A stretch of 64,000 nt of DNA from an uncultured Flavobacteriales bacterium (GTDB lineage Bacteria; Bacteroidota; Bacteroidia; Flavobacteriales_D; Crocinitomicaceae): the NCBI GenBank assembly GCA_913054135.1, contig CAJXJK010000004.1, positions 124,001 through 188,000 on the forward strand, given 5' to 3'. Both the position numbers and the translations under genes were made by a program. The notes beneath the pieces were generated by a model. That model did not search any database. It saw nothing but the letters and a program-made list of their open reading frames with translations, and was not told where the DNA came from. Within the stretch, counting starts at the first letter, position 1, and every line of letters starts with the position of its first letter. Below are positions 29,235 to 37,539 of this stretch, piece by piece.

Positions 29235-29271
29235 AAAAAGGCCAAGTCTCATAAAGATTTGGCCTTTTTTA
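29235..29271. terminator. Bidirectional intrinsic terminator
   Basis: 11-bp stem AAAAAGGCCAA / TTGGCCTTTTT (29235-29245 with 29259-29269) with A-tract and T-tract sides; lies between the TonB-CTD gene (+) and the membrane protein gene (-), whose stop codon is inside the structure. Confidence 0.8.
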
Positions 29272-30024
29272 TTTTCTTGAACTTTGAATCAGGGCAATCC
29301 AATCAATGGTAAAATAAAATATTGGAATAATGAAAAATGGGATACCCAGTAGATAGGCACCTTTCGAAAATGCTAGTATTCCCAATGAAATCATAAATAT
29401 GCATAATGGATACAAGAACAATCTTATTAAAATCATCTTCCAATTCCATTGAGAATCATTGAACTCAGCACTTTTTGAATATTCTCGTTTGTTGAGGACA
29501 TCATTTGCATGATGGATGAATGCCTTCAAATCCAGGTTTACAAGCCCTAATGATATACCTTGGTTTTTTCTAGACCCATTAGGATACTTAATTTCATTGT
29601 AAAGTATGTGATCCTTTTTTCTAATCAGGGTTATCAATCTTTCACCACTTAGCCTATCAATTGCAGCCCTGTACTGAAAACTGTGAGTAGCCTTTCTCTC
29701 TAATTCCCAAAATTCATTGTTCACCAATCGATTCATAACTTCTTCAAAGTCTTCGCCAGAAAGTTTCAAATCAATTTTTTTAAAGTTTAACCTTCGAATC
29801 TTTAAAACTAAGAGCAACAAAGAAAGGAACGCTAGAATTAACGGCATTGTCAGTAATTCTGCCAGCGTATGGATTTGAATATAGTCTTCCTTAAAAAAAT
29901 GATGATAAATTGAAATACTAGATAAAATCAAAGATACCGCTAGGCCACTAAATGGCAACCAATAGTGATCAATCTTCTGCTCACTTTTCAAAGGCAATCT
30001 ATTTCTTGAAATGTAACTACTCAT
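29269..30024 (-). CDS. Hypothetical membrane protein at the end of the metal-uptake operon
   Basis: 251 residues with four hydrophobic segments in two pairs (about 22-42 and 52-70, then 198-215 and 222-242), separated by a soluble region with GEDFEEVMNRLVNNEFWELERKATHSFQYRAAIDRLSGERLITLIRKKD. I do not recognise the family. It begins 1 bp after the second permease gene, so co-transcription with the metal transporter is likely, but a role in transport is only inferred from position. Confidence 0.7.
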   Translation of the reverse strand: MSSYISRNRLPLKSEQKIDHYWLPFSGLAVSLILSSISIYHHFFKEDYIQIHTLAELLTMPLILAFLSLLLLVLKIRRLNFKKIDLKLSGEDFEEVMNRLVNNEFWELERKATHSFQYRAAIDRLSGERLITLIRKKDHILYNEIKYPNGSRKNQGISLGLVNLDLKAFIHHANDVLNKREYSKSAEFNDSQWNWKMILIRLFLYPLCIFMISLGILAFSKGAYLLGIPFFIIPIFYFTIDWIALIQSSRK

Positions 30025-30025
30025 C

Positions 30026-30910
30026 TTATAATTCTGTGGACAATGCTTCGAATTCAGATGAATTACTTTTTTTCTTGATCTGCTTCAAACCAAGTACTAC
30101 AAAAAAGATTAAACCAGAAACACTAACCATTGCTCCGGTAATACTGACATTTAGATAGACAGCAAAGTAGTACCCTATTAAAACTGCCAGAACTCCCAAA
30201 AGTGAAGCTAGAAGCATCATCCTTTTCAACTTCAGAGTAATCAATTGGGCAGTTGCTGCCGGAATAATTAAGAATCCAACAACTAAAATAGCGCCTACTA
30301 CTTCGAAACTAACCACTGTGACTAAGGATACCAATCCCATCATCATATAATGCCACTTGTTCATATTCAAACCTAATGACCAGCCAAAATCTTGATTAAA
30401 AGACAAGAGTTTAAAACCCTTAAATCCTATCCTTACCACCAAAGCAATAATAATTGTCGCAAAACCTTCAATAAAGAAAGCCCTTGGGCCCAAATATAGG
30501 TTGCCATCAACAATGACCTTATCTAAGTTGATTAGGGCTATATCGCCGTACAAGACACACTCCATATCAATATCCACATCTCCTTGAACACCTCCAGCAA
30601 TCATAATCATTCCGATTGCAAACAAGAAAGTATATGTAATTCCAATAGATGCGTCTCCTTGAATCTTAGCCCTCTTAGATAACCAATTAATCAAAAAAGA
30701 AGTGAGAACGCCAGTCAGAGCTGCGCCAATTAACAAAAGTGGAGAAGTTCTATCACCTGATAAAAAATAGGCCACCACGATTCCAGGAAGCACTGAATGA
30801 GAAATGGCATCTCCTACCATTGACATCTTTCTCAATACTAAGAACACACCTAGTATGGAAGCATTGATTGCAACCAAACTGGCAGTTAATATGATGAATA
30901 TGTCGTTCAT
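30026..30910 (-). CDS. Metal ABC transporter permease (ABC-3 family)
   Basis: 294 residues, about eight TM helices. Family landmarks include FLVLRKMSMVGDAISHSVLPGIVVAYFLSGD (EAA-like loop and early TM), GDASIGITYTFLFAIGM and the core FEVVGAILVVGFLIIPAATAQLITLKLKRMMLLA. This is the ZnuB/TroC/D type that carries Zn2+, Mn2+ or Fe2+ across the inner membrane. It pairs with the ATPase and with the other permease; two permeases may heterodimerise. Separated from the upstream fused permease by 128 bp of palindromic repeats. Confidence 0.9.
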   Translation of the reverse strand: MNDIFIILTASLVAINASILGVFLVLRKMSMVGDAISHSVLPGIVVAYFLSGDRTSPLLLIGAALTGVLTSFLINWLSKRAKIQGDASIGITYTFLFAIGMIMIAGGVQGDVDIDMECVLYGDIALINLDKVIVDGNLYLGPRAFFIEGFATIIIALVVRIGFKGFKLLSFNQDFGWSLGLNMNKWHYMMMGLVSLVTVVSFEVVGAILVVGFLIIPAATAQLITLKLKRMMLLASLLGVLAVLIGYYFAVYLNVSITGAMVSVSGLIFFVVLGLKQIKKKSNSSEFEALSTEL

Positions 30911-31038: not shown

Positions 31039-32322
31039 CTAATAATCCTCCTCTGGTATTCCGGTTATTCCTAATTCTTTTTCTAGTTCTTTTTCTAATT
31101 CTGGTGAAATGATATGCTCAATGACCTCAGCACCTGAGTGCACGTGATCAGTATCAATGGTTGTTCTTTTCAATAAATATTGTTCCCAAAGTCTATGCAA
31201 TCTCACAATTCTTCGACTCTCTTTTTTGCCAGACTCTGTGAGGATATAACTCTCACCGTCTCGCAAGACAAAATCTTTACGCATCAATTGGTTAAGGCCG
31301 TTAAGTAAATCAGAGGTATCAAATTTTCGAACTGAAATTAAGTCGGCTGTTTTTAATTTGACTGACAAACTCTCATGAAGCTTCTGACTCTCATGCCATT
31401 GGTAGATGGCCTTTAGTATATTCTCATGCAAGATTTTCTTTCGATTTCCCCTCGCTCTTCTCCATCTTGAAATCATACCTTTTTGAGGCGCAATCAAGAT
31501 GGAACCAAACATGAATACTGAAAGAATCACCACTACCCAAGGACCTGTTGGCATACCTGAATTTGCGTACGAAACATAAGCTCCCCCAATACCTGAAAAG
31601 ATTGAAAAGCAAACTGCCAATACCAGAATCAGTCTCAATTTATGCGTCCACAACCTTGCTGCTGCACCAGGTGTTACAATTAATGCTGACATTAAAATCA
31701 CACCCAAAGCCTGAATGCCGGCTGCTATTGCCAGAACCGTTAATGAGGTAATCAGGAATTCAATAAATCGAACTGGCAAACCAACTGAATGAGCAAAATC
31801 TTTGTTGAAGGCGACTATAACGAAGGCCTTATAAAATAAGACCAATGCTATTACAATTAATACCAGAATGATGGCAAATGCTATTATTTCAGATTTATTG
31901 ATGGCGGCGGCTTGTCCAAACAAGAAAGTGTTGAGTCCTGAGTGTTGTCCGGCTGCATTCTTTTGAATGAAGGTTAAAAGCACAATTCCTAATCCGAAAA
32001 AAGAAGACAGTACAATCCCAATTGCTGCATCTTGTTTGACCTTTGACCTATTCACAATCAAATCAATCGCATAAGTAGCTAACCAACCAGAGGCAAAGGC
32101 TCCTATCATTAAATATGTCACATTCTTTTCACCGGAGAACATGAAGCCCAAACAAAGACCAGGTAATAAGGCATGTGCAACTGCATCACCAATGAGCGCT
32201 CGTTTTCTTAGAAAAGCGAAAGTACCAATCAAAGCCGAAGACGAATTAATCAACAACATACCTAGCACTACATAAAGTACGTTAGGATCTTTGAATGTTA
32301 TGAAATCAATGAAGGTGTTCAT
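31039..32322 (-). CDS. Metal ABC transporter permease fused to DtxR-like winged-helix/dimerisation domain
   Basis: 427 residues. Residues 1-280 are an ABC-3 permease: FAFLRKRALIGDAVAHALLPGLCLGF, QDAAIGIVLSSFFGLGIVLL and AIAAGIQALGVILMSALIVTPGAAARLW. Residues about 295-427 are soluble and resemble a DtxR/MntR regulator: a winged-helix-like part (LHESLSVKLKTADLISVRKFDTSDLLNGLNQLMRKDFVLRDGESYILTESGK) and a dimer/metal region (RIVRLHRLWEQYLL ... AEVIEHIISPELEKELEKELG) that stops before the DPHG motif. The tail may sense cytoplasmic metal and gate transport, or bind DNA while membrane-bound; both are inference. Its ATG is 27 bp after the ATPase gene. Confidence 0.88.
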   Translation of the reverse strand: MNTFIDFITFKDPNVLYVVLGMLLINSSSALIGTFAFLRKRALIGDAVAHALLPGLCLGFMFSGEKNVTYLMIGAFASGWLATYAIDLIVNRSKVKQDAAIGIVLSSFFGLGIVLLTFIQKNAAGQHSGLNTFLFGQAAAINKSEIIAFAIILVLIVIALVLFYKAFVIVAFNKDFAHSVGLPVRFIEFLITSLTVLAIAAGIQALGVILMSALIVTPGAAARLWTHKLRLILVLAVCFSIFSGIGGAYVSYANSGMPTGPWVVVILSVFMFGSILIAPQKGMISRWRRARGNRKKILHENILKAIYQWHESQKLHESLSVKLKTADLISVRKFDTSDLLNGLNQLMRKDFVLRDGESYILTESGKKESRRIVRLHRLWEQYLLKRTTIDTDHVHSGAEVIEHIISPELEKELEKELGITGIPEEDY

Positions 32323-32349: not shown

Positions 32350-33141
32350 CTATAAATCCACGTCTTTCTCTCTAATTGGGAATTCGGTTTTCTTAATTAA
32401 GTCAACCACTTTAGAAAGCAGTGTAAGCTGACCTCCGTAAGCGTTTGATAGATTTTCTTTAGTAAGCACCTCTTGTAAGTTTCCTTTTGCAATTAGCCTG
32501 GTATTAAGCAATACCAAGTAGTCAAAGTATTCTGAAACTGTTTGCAAATCGTGATGGATTATAAGCACTGTTTTTCCATCTGCCTTCATCTCTTGTAATA
32601 AAGCCAAAATTGAAGATTCAGTGGCCGCATCTACGCCAACAAATGGCTCATCCATCAAATACAAATCAGCCTTTTGTGCGAGCGCTCTTGCAATAAAAAC
32701 TCTCTGCTGCTGCCCTCCTGATAATTGCGAGATTTGACGATTCTTGAATTCGGTTAATCCTACTTTTTCAATTGATTGGTTAACAATCTCTACATCTGCC
32801 TTGTTTGTTCTTTTGAGCAGATTCTTTTTACGATATCTACCCATCATCACGACATCAAATACTGAGGCGGGGAAATCCCAATCAACTGACTCTCTTTGAG
32901 GCACATAGGCCACTCGCTCTCTTACATCATCTAAATTCTTGTCGTAGATTTTTACGAAACCAGAAGATGGTTCTACTAAACCCATTATTGATTTAAGAAG
33001 TGTCGTTTTCCCTGAACCATTAGGACCAATTATCCCTATGATTTGACCTTGAGGTAACTCAAAATCAATATCCCATAATACGGGACCTCCGTCATAAGAA
33101 ACCGTTAGGTTATGAACTTCTACTGAGACTTGATTCTTCAT
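32350..33141 (-). CDS. Metal ABC transporter ATP-binding protein
   Basis: 263 residues. Walker A GIIGPNGSGKTTLL, Q-loop YVPQRESVDWDFPASVFDVVMMGR (a sequence characteristic of Zn/Mn/Fe importer ATPases), signature QLSGGQQQRVFIARALAQ, Walker B ADLYLMDEPF, and H-loop LIIHHDL. It powers uptake through the two permeases on the cytoplasmic side. Overlaps the binding-protein gene by 4 bp (ATGA-type coupling). Confidence 0.95.
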   Translation of the reverse strand: MKNQVSVEVHNLTVSYDGGPVLWDIDFELPQGQIIGIIGPNGSGKTTLLKSIMGLVEPSSGFVKIYDKNLDDVRERVAYVPQRESVDWDFPASVFDVVMMGRYRKKNLLKRTNKADVEIVNQSIEKVGLTEFKNRQISQLSGGQQQRVFIARALAQKADLYLMDEPFVGVDAATESSILALLQEMKADGKTVLIIHHDLQTVSEYFDYLVLLNTRLIAKGNLQEVLTKENLSNAYGGQLTLLSKVVDLIKKTEFPIREKDVDL

Positions 33142-34055
33142 TCTAACCCTTCTACAATTGTAATGACATTCGCTTTCATCATCCCGATATAAGTCCCGGC
33201 ATCAACATCCGGTTCACCTAATGCGTCAGAATAAAGTGGCCCTAAAAGATTCACTTCGTATCCTTTTGCCCGGCATCCGTCCACTATTGATTGTGCTGTT
33301 TTATCAGAAGTTGAAGTCTCTACAAAAATTGCTTTTAGTTTTCTCTCAATCACGAAGTCAACCATATCAGCTATTTCCTTTAAGCCCACCTCAGACAAGG
33401 TTGAGATTCCCTGAATCCCTTTAACTTCTATGTCATATCGTTTTCCAAAGTAGGAAAAGGCGTCATGTGAAGTCACCAGTACTTTTGAGTTTTCATCCAA
33501 CTTTTTCAACTTTCTTTTTACCCAGCTATCTAATTTCTTTACTTCTTTTTCATAAGATGCGAGATTCACCTGAAAGACAGAATCAAGTTCTGGTTCAATC
33601 TCACCTAATTCTTTCGTAACATGAGTTAAGCCCTTCATCCATTTTTCAGTATCGAACCAAATGTGAGGATCATTCGCGTCTTCAAAGTCTGCAGACTTGA
33701 TTATATCTTCTTTGTCTAAGCCATCAGAAACCAGAATCAAAGGTTTTTCTTTGCTATACTTTTCTAACATTTCGGCCATTTTTCCTTCAAGATGCAAGCC
33801 ATTGGCTACAATGACATCAGCCTCATCTAAAATCTCGATATCACCCGGAGTCGGTTTATACATATGAGGATCAGTTCCTGGCCCCATAAGAGCTGTTACT
33901 TCACAGTCTGGACCGACAATATTGATTAATCCATCTTCAATAATCCCAGTTGTAGTAACTATGTTCAATGGACCCAAGCGCTCATCTTTTTCTTCGTCTA
34001 AACGACATGAAACCAATGCCAGTCCAGCTATTAATATGTAAATCAGTTTCTTCAT
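33138..34055 (-). CDS. TroA/ZnuA-like metal-binding lipoprotein
   Basis: 305 residues. Lipoprotein signal LALVSC (Cys17), then a cluster A-I fold with the expected ligands: His64 (GTDPHMYKP), His131 (NDPHIWFD), His197 (VTSHDAFSYFG) and Asp277 (YSDALG). A His-His-His-Asp set is like TroA and ZnuA rather than the His-His-Glu-Asp set of PsaA/MtsA, so zinc or a broader Zn/Mn/Fe range is likely. There is no long His/Asp-rich loop as in proteobacterial ZnuA. Overlaps both neighbours by 4 bp in the operon. Confidence 0.92.
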   Translation of the reverse strand: MKKLIYILIAGLALVSCRLDEEKDERLGPLNIVTTTGIIEDGLINIVGPDCEVTALMGPGTDPHMYKPTPGDIEILDEADVIVANGLHLEGKMAEMLEKYSKEKPLILVSDGLDKEDIIKSADFEDANDPHIWFDTEKWMKGLTHVTKELGEIEPELDSVFQVNLASYEKEVKKLDSWVKRKLKKLDENSKVLVTSHDAFSYFGKRYDIEVKGIQGISTLSEVGLKEIADMVDFVIERKLKAIFVETSTSDKTAQSIVDGCRAKGYEVNLLGPLYSDALGEPDVDAGTYIGMMKANVITIVEGLE

Positions 34056-34735
34056 TTTGTTTTAAATTTTACTGCAATATTTTCGGCCACTTTCTTTGAT
34101 AATGAGAGCTTATGTTTATCGTCTAATTCAATCATAATGGATTCATCAAAAGCAACTCTTTCCGTCACTTTTATTGAACTGCCCAAAGACAAATTGATTT
34201 GATCTAAGTACTGCAAGAGTTCAAATGAGTCTTCATTTACCTGCACTACCTCAACTATAGCATCAATTGAAATTTCACTCAATGGCACTTTAGATTCTTG
34301 ATAATCTATATTCCCATCCTTATCTGGAATTGGGTCCCCGTGAGGATCAACCTTTGGAAAATTCAAAAAACGATCAATACCATCAACCAATTTACTTGAT
34401 TGAATATGCTCTAATTGTTCGGCAACATCATGAACTTCATCCCAACCAAAGTTTAGTTTGTTCACTAAAAAGGTTTCCCAAAGCCTGTGTTTTCTAATGA
34501 TGTGTACAGCAATTTTCTCACCTTGAGAAGTCAAGACACATCCTTTATATTTTTCATATGACACCAATTTCTTATCTCCCAATTTCTTCAACATATCTGT
34601 GATCGAAGAAGCTTTGGTATCTAACTTTTCAGCCAATGAATTGGTGCTTACTTTCATTTTATCTCTTCCTGATAAATGAAAAATTTCTTTCACATAATTT
34701 TCCTCAGATTGAGAAAGCGCCTTACTTTTTGTCAT
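34052..34735 (-). CDS. DtxR/MntR-family metal-dependent transcriptional regulator
   Basis: 227 residues. The N-terminal winged helix (SQSEENYVKEIFHLSGRDKMKVSTNSLAEKLDTKASSITDMLKKLGDKKLVSYEKYKGCVLT), the dimerisation domain (HIIRKHRLWETFLVNKLNFGWDEVHDVAEQLEHIQSSKLVDGIDRFLNFPKVDPHGDPIPD) and a C-terminal SH3/FeoA-like domain are all present. Metal ligands in the HRLWE, EQLEH and DPHG motifs are kept. It should repress the operon when its metal is plentiful; the dyad at 36971-36992 is the likely operator. Overlaps the TonB receptor gene by 14 bp and the binding protein gene by 4 bp. Confidence 0.93.
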   Translation of the reverse strand: MTKSKALSQSEENYVKEIFHLSGRDKMKVSTNSLAEKLDTKASSITDMLKKLGDKKLVSYEKYKGCVLTSQGEKIAVHIIRKHRLWETFLVNKLNFGWDEVHDVAEQLEHIQSSKLVDGIDRFLNFPKVDPHGDPIPDKDGNIDYQESKVPLSEISIDAIVEVVQVNEDSFELLQYLDQINLSLGSSIKVTERVAFDESIMIELDDKHKLSLSKKVAENIAVKFKTK

Positions 34736-36935
34736 CTTTTCTATCTAATTTCCATCTAATACCTAAAAAGAATCTTCTCACCTGTAACGGCCCGTAAGCA
34801 TAAGAGGTATCAAAGTCATCACCATAAGGGTTTGATGGATCAATTAAGGGTGAATCTTGCGTATAGTTGAACATATTTTTCACTCCCATATACACATCCA
34901 TTCCAGCCTTTTTCAAGTTCTTAGTAATTTGAAAATGCTGTACTGTGAACCATGGAGACACCTCAGGCTTCTCATATATGGGATCAAATTGTGGTAATTT
35001 TTGATTCCCCATAACTTTTCCAATCCAGTTAAATTCTATCCCTGCTTTCTTCCAACTATACGTTAGTCCAAAGGTTCCTGAGAAGCGAGGGGCAAATACC
35101 TGATCAATCTTTATCATCTCGCCATTTTCATCTTCTACCTTTTCAAATACTTGCATGAAAGTTGCTCCCATTCTTAATCGCATTGGGAATTTAAATGAAT
35201 GATTTACAGCTACCGATACACCTCTTGAAGTTCCGTATCCATCTAAATTATCGTAGACAATTAGATTCGGGTCTTGGTCATAGTCAGGAATTATTTTGTT
35301 TTGAAAGTAAGTGTAGAAAACGTCAACATCAAAATTCCCGTATCCGAGTCCAGTGTAGGTGTAGTTAAAATTCAATGTTGCATTATGTGAACGTTCTGGC
35401 TTCAATTCATTCAAGATCACAACATCTCTTGAGCCAGAAACAAATGCATGATCTTCAGTGAACAAATGAACTTGTCTAAAACCTGTTCCGTAATTAAATC
35501 TCAGGGCTGAAAATGCTCCGAATTGCTTCTTCATACTCAATCGTGGTGAGAATATGATGCCGTGATTCTTATGATAATCAAGTCTAGCTCCACCCAGTAT
35601 TTTTAACTCATCAGTCACATCCCATTCATCTTGAACAAAGACTCCAGGAACATAATTATTCTCATCAGTTTGTGAAGGCGTATTATCACTGTAAAGATTA
35701 TACCTATTTGATAATCCCGCTATGAAATAATGCTTCTTTTTAATCTTTTGAGACCAAATCAAATTTGAAAAGAATACCTGTTGATTAGCCTGATAGCTAA
35801 CATCACCATACCAAGAATCTTGTTTATGAGAATTAGCCGAAAAATCTAACTTCAAGTTTCTCTTTTTTAAGGGAAAAATGTAAGAACCTAAGACTTCAAG
35901 ACGCTCTGTTTTGATACTCTCACCATAAAGTGTACTGCTCGCTCTATCCGCTTTTGTCCAATCCATCACTCCACCAAACCTATCTTCATTATAATATCTA
36001 CCCGCCAAGGAAAGCACAGTTTCTCCCTCTTTATTTTCGATTCTCCATTTGTTAAAGAGTGATAATCTATTGTTCAGTGGAATATCAGTGAATCCATCAT
36101 TATTTTCATCTATTCTCAAATTGTTGTAGTAATAATCACCACTTAATGAGGTAAAAACTCGTTTGCCAATTTTGGGGGTGTAGGCAAAATTCCCTTTAAG
36201 TTCTTGGTGCGTATTAAAATTTGCCTCCATTTCAATGAGCGGAGATTTAGAAGGATTTTTAGTGATGATATTTACAACTCCTCCCACCGCTTCTGTACCA
36301 TAAAGAGTACTTGAAGGCCCTTTAACTATCTCAACTCTATCAATTAATGAGGTTGGGATACCATTGAAGCCATATACTGATGACAATCCTGAAACGATAG
36401 GCATTCCATCAATTAAGACCAGTGTGTAAGGACCTTCCATTCCATTAATATGGATATCATTTGTACCACAAACCCCACAGTTAACTTGCTCTTGAACTCC
36501 ATTTACGGTTTCAAGGGCTTCTATTACAGAGAAAACTGGTGAAGCAATAAAGAACTTTTGAGATAAGACTTGTATTTTGACCGGTGATTTTGCAACCGAA
36601 GTCTCTCTCATGGTTCCGGTCACTACCACCTTATTTAATTCTAAATGATCTTCTAATTCAATTTGAAGAGGTTTGAAGTCTTTCTTAACTTCAATAGCTT
36701 GTCTAAATTCTTGGAAGCCAACCGAACTCACTCTTATCTCATAATTGCCTTCTTTGACATTCTCAAAAAGAAATTTTCCATCTTCATCAGAAATTACTCC
36801 TTTTTCAGTGGGGTAAAGAACAACTTTTGCGAAAGGAACAGCACTTTCACCAGAGCGAATCACACCTTCTAATATGTTTTGTGTCAAGCCATTAAAACCT
36901 AGCAGCAATGCTATCAACAACACAATTGTTTTCAT
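34722..36935 (-). CDS. TonB-dependent outer-membrane receptor for the metal-uptake system
   Basis: 737 residues. Signal peptide (MKTIVLLIALLLGFNGLTQ), CarboxypepD_reg-like domain (about 20-95), plug domain (about 105-235) with a CGVCGTNDIHINGMEGPYT segment, IDGMPIVSG and GPSSTLYGTEAVGGVVNI, then a 22-strand beta-barrel ending in RRFFLGIRWKL. It imports a metal or metal chelate across the outer membrane. The place at the head of a DtxR-controlled metal ABC operon, with 14-bp overlap to the regulator, says the ligand is the same metal (Zn, Mn or Fe). The CxxC in the plug is notable and could contact metal. Confidence 0.92.
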   Translation of the reverse strand: MKTIVLLIALLLGFNGLTQNILEGVIRSGESAVPFAKVVLYPTEKGVISDEDGKFLFENVKEGNYEIRVSSVGFQEFRQAIEVKKDFKPLQIELEDHLELNKVVVTGTMRETSVAKSPVKIQVLSQKFFIASPVFSVIEALETVNGVQEQVNCGVCGTNDIHINGMEGPYTLVLIDGMPIVSGLSSVYGFNGIPTSLIDRVEIVKGPSSTLYGTEAVGGVVNIITKNPSKSPLIEMEANFNTHQELKGNFAYTPKIGKRVFTSLSGDYYYNNLRIDENNDGFTDIPLNNRLSLFNKWRIENKEGETVLSLAGRYYNEDRFGGVMDWTKADRASSTLYGESIKTERLEVLGSYIFPLKKRNLKLDFSANSHKQDSWYGDVSYQANQQVFFSNLIWSQKIKKKHYFIAGLSNRYNLYSDNTPSQTDENNYVPGVFVQDEWDVTDELKILGGARLDYHKNHGIIFSPRLSMKKQFGAFSALRFNYGTGFRQVHLFTEDHAFVSGSRDVVILNELKPERSHNATLNFNYTYTGLGYGNFDVDVFYTYFQNKIIPDYDQDPNLIVYDNLDGYGTSRGVSVAVNHSFKFPMRLRMGATFMQVFEKVEDENGEMIKIDQVFAPRFSGTFGLTYSWKKAGIEFNWIGKVMGNQKLPQFDPIYEKPEVSPWFTVQHFQITKNLKKAGMDVYMGVKNMFNYTQDSPLIDPSNPYGDDFDTSYAYGPLQVRRFFLGIRWKLDRKDDKK

Positions 36936-36955
36936 TTATCTCAATTTGAGTTACA

Positions 36956-36963
36956 CAAATATA
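36956..36963 (-). promoter_or_regulatory. -7 element of the metal-uptake operon
   Basis: Minus strand TATATTTG, perfect TAnnTTTG, 20 nt before the receptor ATG. Its -33 region falls within the dyad at 36971-36992. Confidence 0.6.
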
Positions 36964-36970
36964 CAAAATA

Positions 36971-36992
36971 ATTTTTAGGTATGACTAAAAAT
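36971..36992. promoter_or_regulatory. Candidate DtxR-family operator (perfect dyad)
   Basis: ATTTTTAG (36971-36978), 6-nt centre GTATGA, CTAAAAAT (36985-36992): an 8-bp perfect inverted repeat. The TTTAGG...CTAAA shape resembles operators of DtxR/MntR/TroR regulators. It overlaps the -33 position of the promoter driving an operon that encodes such a regulator, an arrangement suited to metal-dependent repression. Confidence 0.65.
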
Positions 36993-37058: not shown

Positions 37059-37088
37059 TTGACAGTTAAAATCAAAATCCTATCTTTG
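37059..37088 (+). promoter_or_regulatory. Promoter of ndk
   Basis: TTG at 37059-37061, 19-nt spacer, TATCTTTG at 37081-37088. Both elements match the Bacteroidota consensus; ATG 28 nt downstream. Confidence 0.7.
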
Positions 37089-37116: not shown

Positions 37117-37539
37117 ATGGCTACGAACAGAACATTTACAATGATAAAGCCTGAGGCAGTTGCAGCAGGACACGGAGGAAAAATCATTGACGCAATTATT
37201 GCTGCAGGATTTGAAATCAAAGCGTTAAAATTAACTACACTTTCAAAAGAAAGAGCAGGAGAATTTTATGAAGTACATAAAGAGCGTCCATTTTATGGAG
37301 AATTAGTTGACTATATGTCAAGTGGTCCTATTTATGCTGCTATCCTAGAGAAAGATAACGCAGTTGCTGATTTCAGAGCTTTAATTGGAGCAACTGACCC
37401 AGCTGAAGCAGCTGAAGGAACAATCAGAAAAAACTTTGCTAAGTCAAAAGCTGAGAACGCAGTTCACGGTTCTGACTCAGATGATAACGCAAGAATTGAA
37501 GGTGAATTTCATTTTGCAGCTTCTGAAGTTGTAGCTTAA
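37117..37539 (+). CDS. ndk: Nucleoside-diphosphate kinase
   Basis: 140 residues, the usual Ndk length. Begins [23 protein letters not shown]; the active-site motif is [12 protein letters not shown] with the phospho-accepting His, and the terminal FHFAASE is kept. It moves the gamma phosphate between nucleoside di- and triphosphates in the cytoplasm. Single gene with a consensus promoter and a terminator. Confidence 0.97.

Follow-up and report, generated by a model that had tools for sequence, protein, structure and literature searches.

The window, by which we mean the whole 64-kb stretch of DNA that was analysed, contains a minus-strand operon for metal uptake and, between its first gene and a divergent gene in the plus strand, a palindrome that overlaps the predicted operon promoter. 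The elements of the region are the following:

37117-37539, plus strand: divergent gene, which we take from its sequence to be ndk-like, with its own TATCTTTG at 37081-37088
36971-36992: candidate operator dyad ATTTTTAG-GTATGA-CTAAAAAT, with perfect 8+8 arms and a 6-bp spacer (conserved core, 36974-36989)
36956-36963, minus strand: -7 promoter box TATATTTG, matching the TAnnTTTG consensus (predicted start near 36951)
34722-36935, minus strand: TonB-dependent outer-membrane receptor, operon gene 1 (Pfam PF00593, PF07715, PF13715)
34052-34735, minus strand: DtxR/MntR-type regulator with a FeoA (SH3-like) domain (PF01325, PF02742, PF04023)
33138-34055, minus strand: metal-binding lipoprotein of the ABC importer, ZnuA/MntC type (PF01297)
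32350-33141, minus strand: ATPase of the ABC importer (PF00005; the top NCBIfam match, a Mn/Fe ABC ATPase, is below the cut-off)
31039-32322, minus strand: ABC permease 1 with a C-terminal DtxR-like metal-binding domain (PF00950, PF02742)
30026-30910, minus strand: ABC permease 2 (NCBIfam metal-permease models, below the cut-offs)

Genes 1-4 of the operon overlap successively by 4-14 bp. Located 1 bp past permease 2, a gene for a 251-aa membrane-like protein (29269-30024, minus strand), with no NCBIfam match, may be the final gene of the operon. The C-terminal ~125 aa of permease 1 are a DtxR-like module (PF02742; residues 302-418 match the MntR model) that retains the His, Glu, Glu, His ligand set and is also present in several relatives. 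Through this module, the importer may carry its own tethered metal sensor; a literature search for papers on such a fusion of a permease with a DtxR-like module found nothing direct.

The dyad and the operon promoter

The plus strand at 36971-36992 reads ATTTTTAGGTATGACTAAAAAT, and the perfect dyad ATTTTTAG-N6-CTAAAAAT described in the sequence-only reading is thus borne out by the letters. On the minus strand, the dyad is separated from TATATTTG by 7 bp (TATTTTG, 36970-36964), the same spacing that had been claimed, and the ATG of the receptor gene is at 36935. The vegetative promoter of Bacteroidota is composed of TTTG at -33 and TAnnTTTG at -7 (PMC2483708), and the -7 box occupies -12 to -5 in Flavobacterium psychrophilum (PMC9723704). 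With this numbering, transcription would start near 36951 and the dyad would extend from about -41 to -20, thus covering the -33 region; the overlap with -33 proposed earlier holds if the -7 box is placed in this way. No clean TTTG -33 box was found beneath the dyad. Since the ndk-like gene has its own TATCTTTG, some 90 bp off, the dyad probably serves the minus-strand operon alone and leaves the divergent gene outside its control. The proximity of the ndk-like gene to the regulator operon is conserved in many relatives (L016-L019, L024-L026, L047, L087, L088, and L094).

The regulator and its proposed mode of action

As the sequence-only reading had stated, the operon encodes a DtxR-family protein: its domains place the regulator in this family, and no other member was found in the 4.05-Mb genome. 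It has 227 aa and three domains: an N-terminal winged-helix Fe_dep_repress domain (PF01325, 54.9 bits, above the cut-off of 26), a metal-binding/dimerisation domain (PF02742, 107.2 bits, above the cut-off of 27), and the FeoA (SH3-like) domain. Its score with the MntR equivalog model NF047407 was 160.9 bits, under the cut-off of 350, such that "MntR-like" and not MntR is its proper name; SloR and ScaR are among its closest solved relatives. The ligands His83, Glu106, Glu109, and His110 are present in the regulator and in all 36 relatives aligned. A Glu or a Cys (Cys102 of DtxR) at one ligand position divides the Mn from the Fe branch of the family, and the regulator carries Glu106, not Cys, at this Glu99/Cys102 position, along with the equivalents of His77, Glu102, and His103. 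The N-terminal Asp ligand (Asp8 in B. subtilis MntR, Asp7 in SloR) was not found; the regulator has Asn13 at this position, which is Asn in 31 of the 36 relatives and Asp in 5, and this substitution may alter its metal binding. Aligned by eye on the common SSVTxM motif, Thr40 and Lys41 of B. subtilis MntR correspond to residues 46 and 47 of the regulator, and in the cryo-EM structure Thr40 lines a pocket for the methyl of a conserved thymine whereas Lys41 touches half-site bases (PMC11275975).

We consider it very likely that the DtxR/MntR-type regulator of the operon uses the dyad as its operator and that the metal-loaded protein, probably with Mn2+, binds it for autogenous repression. A divalent metal, most likely Mn2+, would load the regulator, and its dimer would set one recognition helix on each TTTAG half-site; the bound dimer, spanning about -41 to -20, would bar the vegetative RNA polymerase from the -33/-7 promoter, and this block would silence the genes for receptor, ABC importer, and regulator alike. 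Under metal scarcity, the regulator would release the dyad and the uptake system would be produced. Homology and the geometry of the promoter are what suggest repression under plentiful metal.

This type of switch is already known from the operators of MntR, SloR, and TroR. SloR, the Mn regulator acting on sloABC and mntH of Streptococcus mutans, also belongs to the DtxR family, has the three domains found here, and represses Mn uptake genes from a palindrome with a 6-bp spacer over a promoter element; at mntH, its 6-6-6 interrupted palindrome overlaps the -35, and binding requires the 6-bp spacer (PMC12096823). It differs in having TTAA-type arms and several cooperating sites, whereas the locus described here has TTTAG-type arms, one dyad, a Bacteroidota -33/-7 promoter, and a TonB-dependent receptor within the operon. 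In Treponema, too, a single operon encodes an ABC metal importer and the DtxR-like TroR, and an 18-bp dyad overlaps or adjoins the tro promoter (PMC2628430). The likeness to TroR is one of layout; the regulator is the last of the five tro genes described but the second gene here, and the tro promoter is of the sigma-70 type.

B. subtilis MntR is without the FeoA-type third domain that the regulator has here. Its recognition helix aligns with that of the regulator, Thr40 corresponding to Thr46, and the two proteins differ at Asp8 (Asn13 here), Glu11 (Lys16), and Lys41 (Asp47). At mntA and mntH it acts, as we propose for this operon, from a single operator overlapping the promoter of the uptake gene (PMC11275975). 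The same protein is able to activate exporter genes from upstream sites, so one could suppose that the regulator binds the dyad yet activates, or merely fine-tunes, the promoter. We regard this as very improbable: activation by B. subtilis MntR involves several weak upstream sites (PMC11275975), whereas a single near-consensus site lies over the -33 region of an uptake operon here, an arrangement shared with mntA and mntH, whose promoters are repressed.

The dyad in the genome and across the Bacteroidota

The dyad is the only match to its own pattern in the window at 0 mismatches. Allowing up to 3 mismatches, 7 matches were found against 2.65 expected, and weak matches in the window therefore carry little meaning. 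The 4.05-Mb genome has a single copy of the exact 20-bp core, TTTTTAGN6CTAAAAA, and none of the reversed pattern; across 39 genomes, the exact bare pattern gave 16 matches and its reversed control 12. The bare dyad is thus not rare enough alone, and conservation had to decide.

Within this genome, the regulon was assessed by pattern searches. All 10 sites that differ from TTTTTAGN6CTAAAAA by no more than 1 mismatch were inspected; 8 lie within open reading frames, and the remaining 2 are the operon dyad itself and one intergenic site whose flanking genes have no evident metal link. Perfect TTTAGDYNNRHCTAAA sites number 4 in the genome, and one besides the dyad is intergenic, lying between an EF-Tu-like and a small secE-like gene with no metal link. 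At up to 1 mismatch, TTTAGDYNNRHCTAAA has 87 sites in the genome vs. 129 for the control pattern; the first 15 of the 87 one-mismatch sites were inspected, and degenerate members of the regulon may remain.

Relatives of the regulator were drawn from named genomes, from close relatives, and evenly across the phylum. The pattern NTTAGN6CTAAN was found upstream of 97 of 154 regulator loci across the Bacteroidota, while three patterns of the same composition gave 0, 1, and 3 matches in the 154 upstream regions, and gene bodies of equal length had 2 in 155. The absence of enrichment before metal genes in related genomes had been named as the result that would speak against the operator; the dyad withstood this test (97 of 154 vs. 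0-3 in the controls). Like an operator of the DtxR/MntR type, it is a palindrome over a metal-uptake promoter that is conserved together with the regulator.

A chance AT-rich palindrome or a terminator-like hairpin would be another account of the dyad, and the AT-rich genome and the scarce enrichment of the bare pattern in relatives (16 vs. 12 in the control) speak in its favour. Nevertheless, the conservation at promoters across families, with control patterns close to zero, argues against chance. As for a terminator, the dyad has divergent genes on both sides and the -7 box downstream of it, hence lies outside the operon messenger and at no 3' end, and this explanation as a whole seems to us hardly credible.

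The conserved sites have the consensus TTTAG-R/T-Y-WW-R-Y-CTAAA, in which the spacer holds information and conservation is only ~60-66% at the outer T/A pairs of the arms. The half-sites of such repressors had been given as TTAGG/CCTAA-like; what is conserved here is TTTAG with R/T-Y after it. In receptor-first operons (L016/L114, which are one contig fetched twice, L112, L113, and L115), the dyad precedes the receptor gene, 8 bp from TAnnTTTG as counted from the 20-bp core, a distance identical to that in the operon described here. At many other loci it lies immediately before the regulator gene, with TAnnTTTG ~5-8 or ~20-24 bp downstream. The exact core dyad is absent from 57 of the 154 upstream regions: some of these regulators seem to sit inside operons, and others, most of them of the Bacteroidales type with SxM helices, may use a different site. 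Four regulators of the Ignavibacteria type (L036, L037, L040, and L045) have Asp at the Asp8 position, a SPASVNGM helix, and neither class of dyad upstream, such that they probably use another operator.

The literature search, to which subscription papers were mostly beyond reach, found nothing direct on a Bacteroidota MntR motif or on RegPrecise entries for it, and we did not find a recognition motif for the whole phylum described. For manganese-type metalloregulation in bacteria that have their own promoter type, the dyad offers a concrete candidate operator across the phylum, and the motif allows the prediction of metal-uptake regulons.

Signal metal and operator classes

The motif precedes MntABC-type ABC operons, mntH (Nramp) genes, and ZIP genes, some of them apart from the regulator. 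A perfect GTTAG/CTAAC core precedes two unlinked genes, L207 (mntH) and L246 (binding protein), both from genomes with regulators of the G class treated below; the unlinked transporters L243, L249, and L250 have the core at one mismatch. No such dyad was seen immediately upstream of the mntH-like L208-L210 or the ABC genes L234, L236, L247, and L248.

From these genes and the regulator, Mn2+ is the most likely signal metal. With the same operator and regulator, the signal could instead be Fe2+ or Zn2+, an unlikely reading but one with appreciable weight. The closest family models of the importer include zinc (AztABC) besides manganese proteins, all below cut-off, ZIP genes occur at some dyad-bearing loci, Asn13 stands in place of the usual Asp, and a TonB-dependent receptor is more often a partner of iron or zinc. 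Against it, the motif also precedes MntH-type Nramp genes, the one tested being above the curated cut-off of the MntH subfamily, and Glu106, not Cys, occupies the position that separates the Mn and Fe branches.

The outer base of the dyad varies with the recognition helix of the regulator. Helices ending in TDM or SDM are accompanied by TTTAG/CTAAA in 65 of the 66 loci with a clean class, the lone exception being L107, where a KPATVSDM helix has a GTTAG site; NSM, NDM, NNM, and TSM helices have GTTAG/CTAAC in 16 of 16. Further TTTAG sites occur with TNM helices (2) and a SEM helix (1). The GTTAG-N6-CTAAC class was observed at L049, L100, L102, L105-L109, L111, L169, L175, L177, L180, L183, L184, L188, and L190.

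Because its outer base tracks the recognition helix, the dyad appears tied to the regulator itself. Fur-family proteins likewise bind AT-rich dyads before metal genes, and the site could in principle belong to Fur, Zur, or another regulator while the DtxR-like protein of the operon acts elsewhere; yet the dyad follows the mntR-like gene through shifting neighbourhoods and changes with the helix of its product, which leaves such an assignment with very little probability.

When the helix was left out of tree building, the G class called for two changes on the resulting tree, so the pairing is backed by one or two evolutionary events and a code is not yet proven. As a tentative model, to which we would give somewhat less than an even chance, the Bacteroidota would have at least two MntR-like classes whose operators differ by one symmetric pair set by helix residues 44-47, insulating paralogues in the same cell, and most of these regulators would sense metal through the Asn-for-Asp site. 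The one-base contrast between the paralogue classes would be a simple, testable specificity switch. In the seven genomes with two paralogues (G113, G136, G148, G163, G183, G187, and G231), each paralogue is found with a site of its own class.
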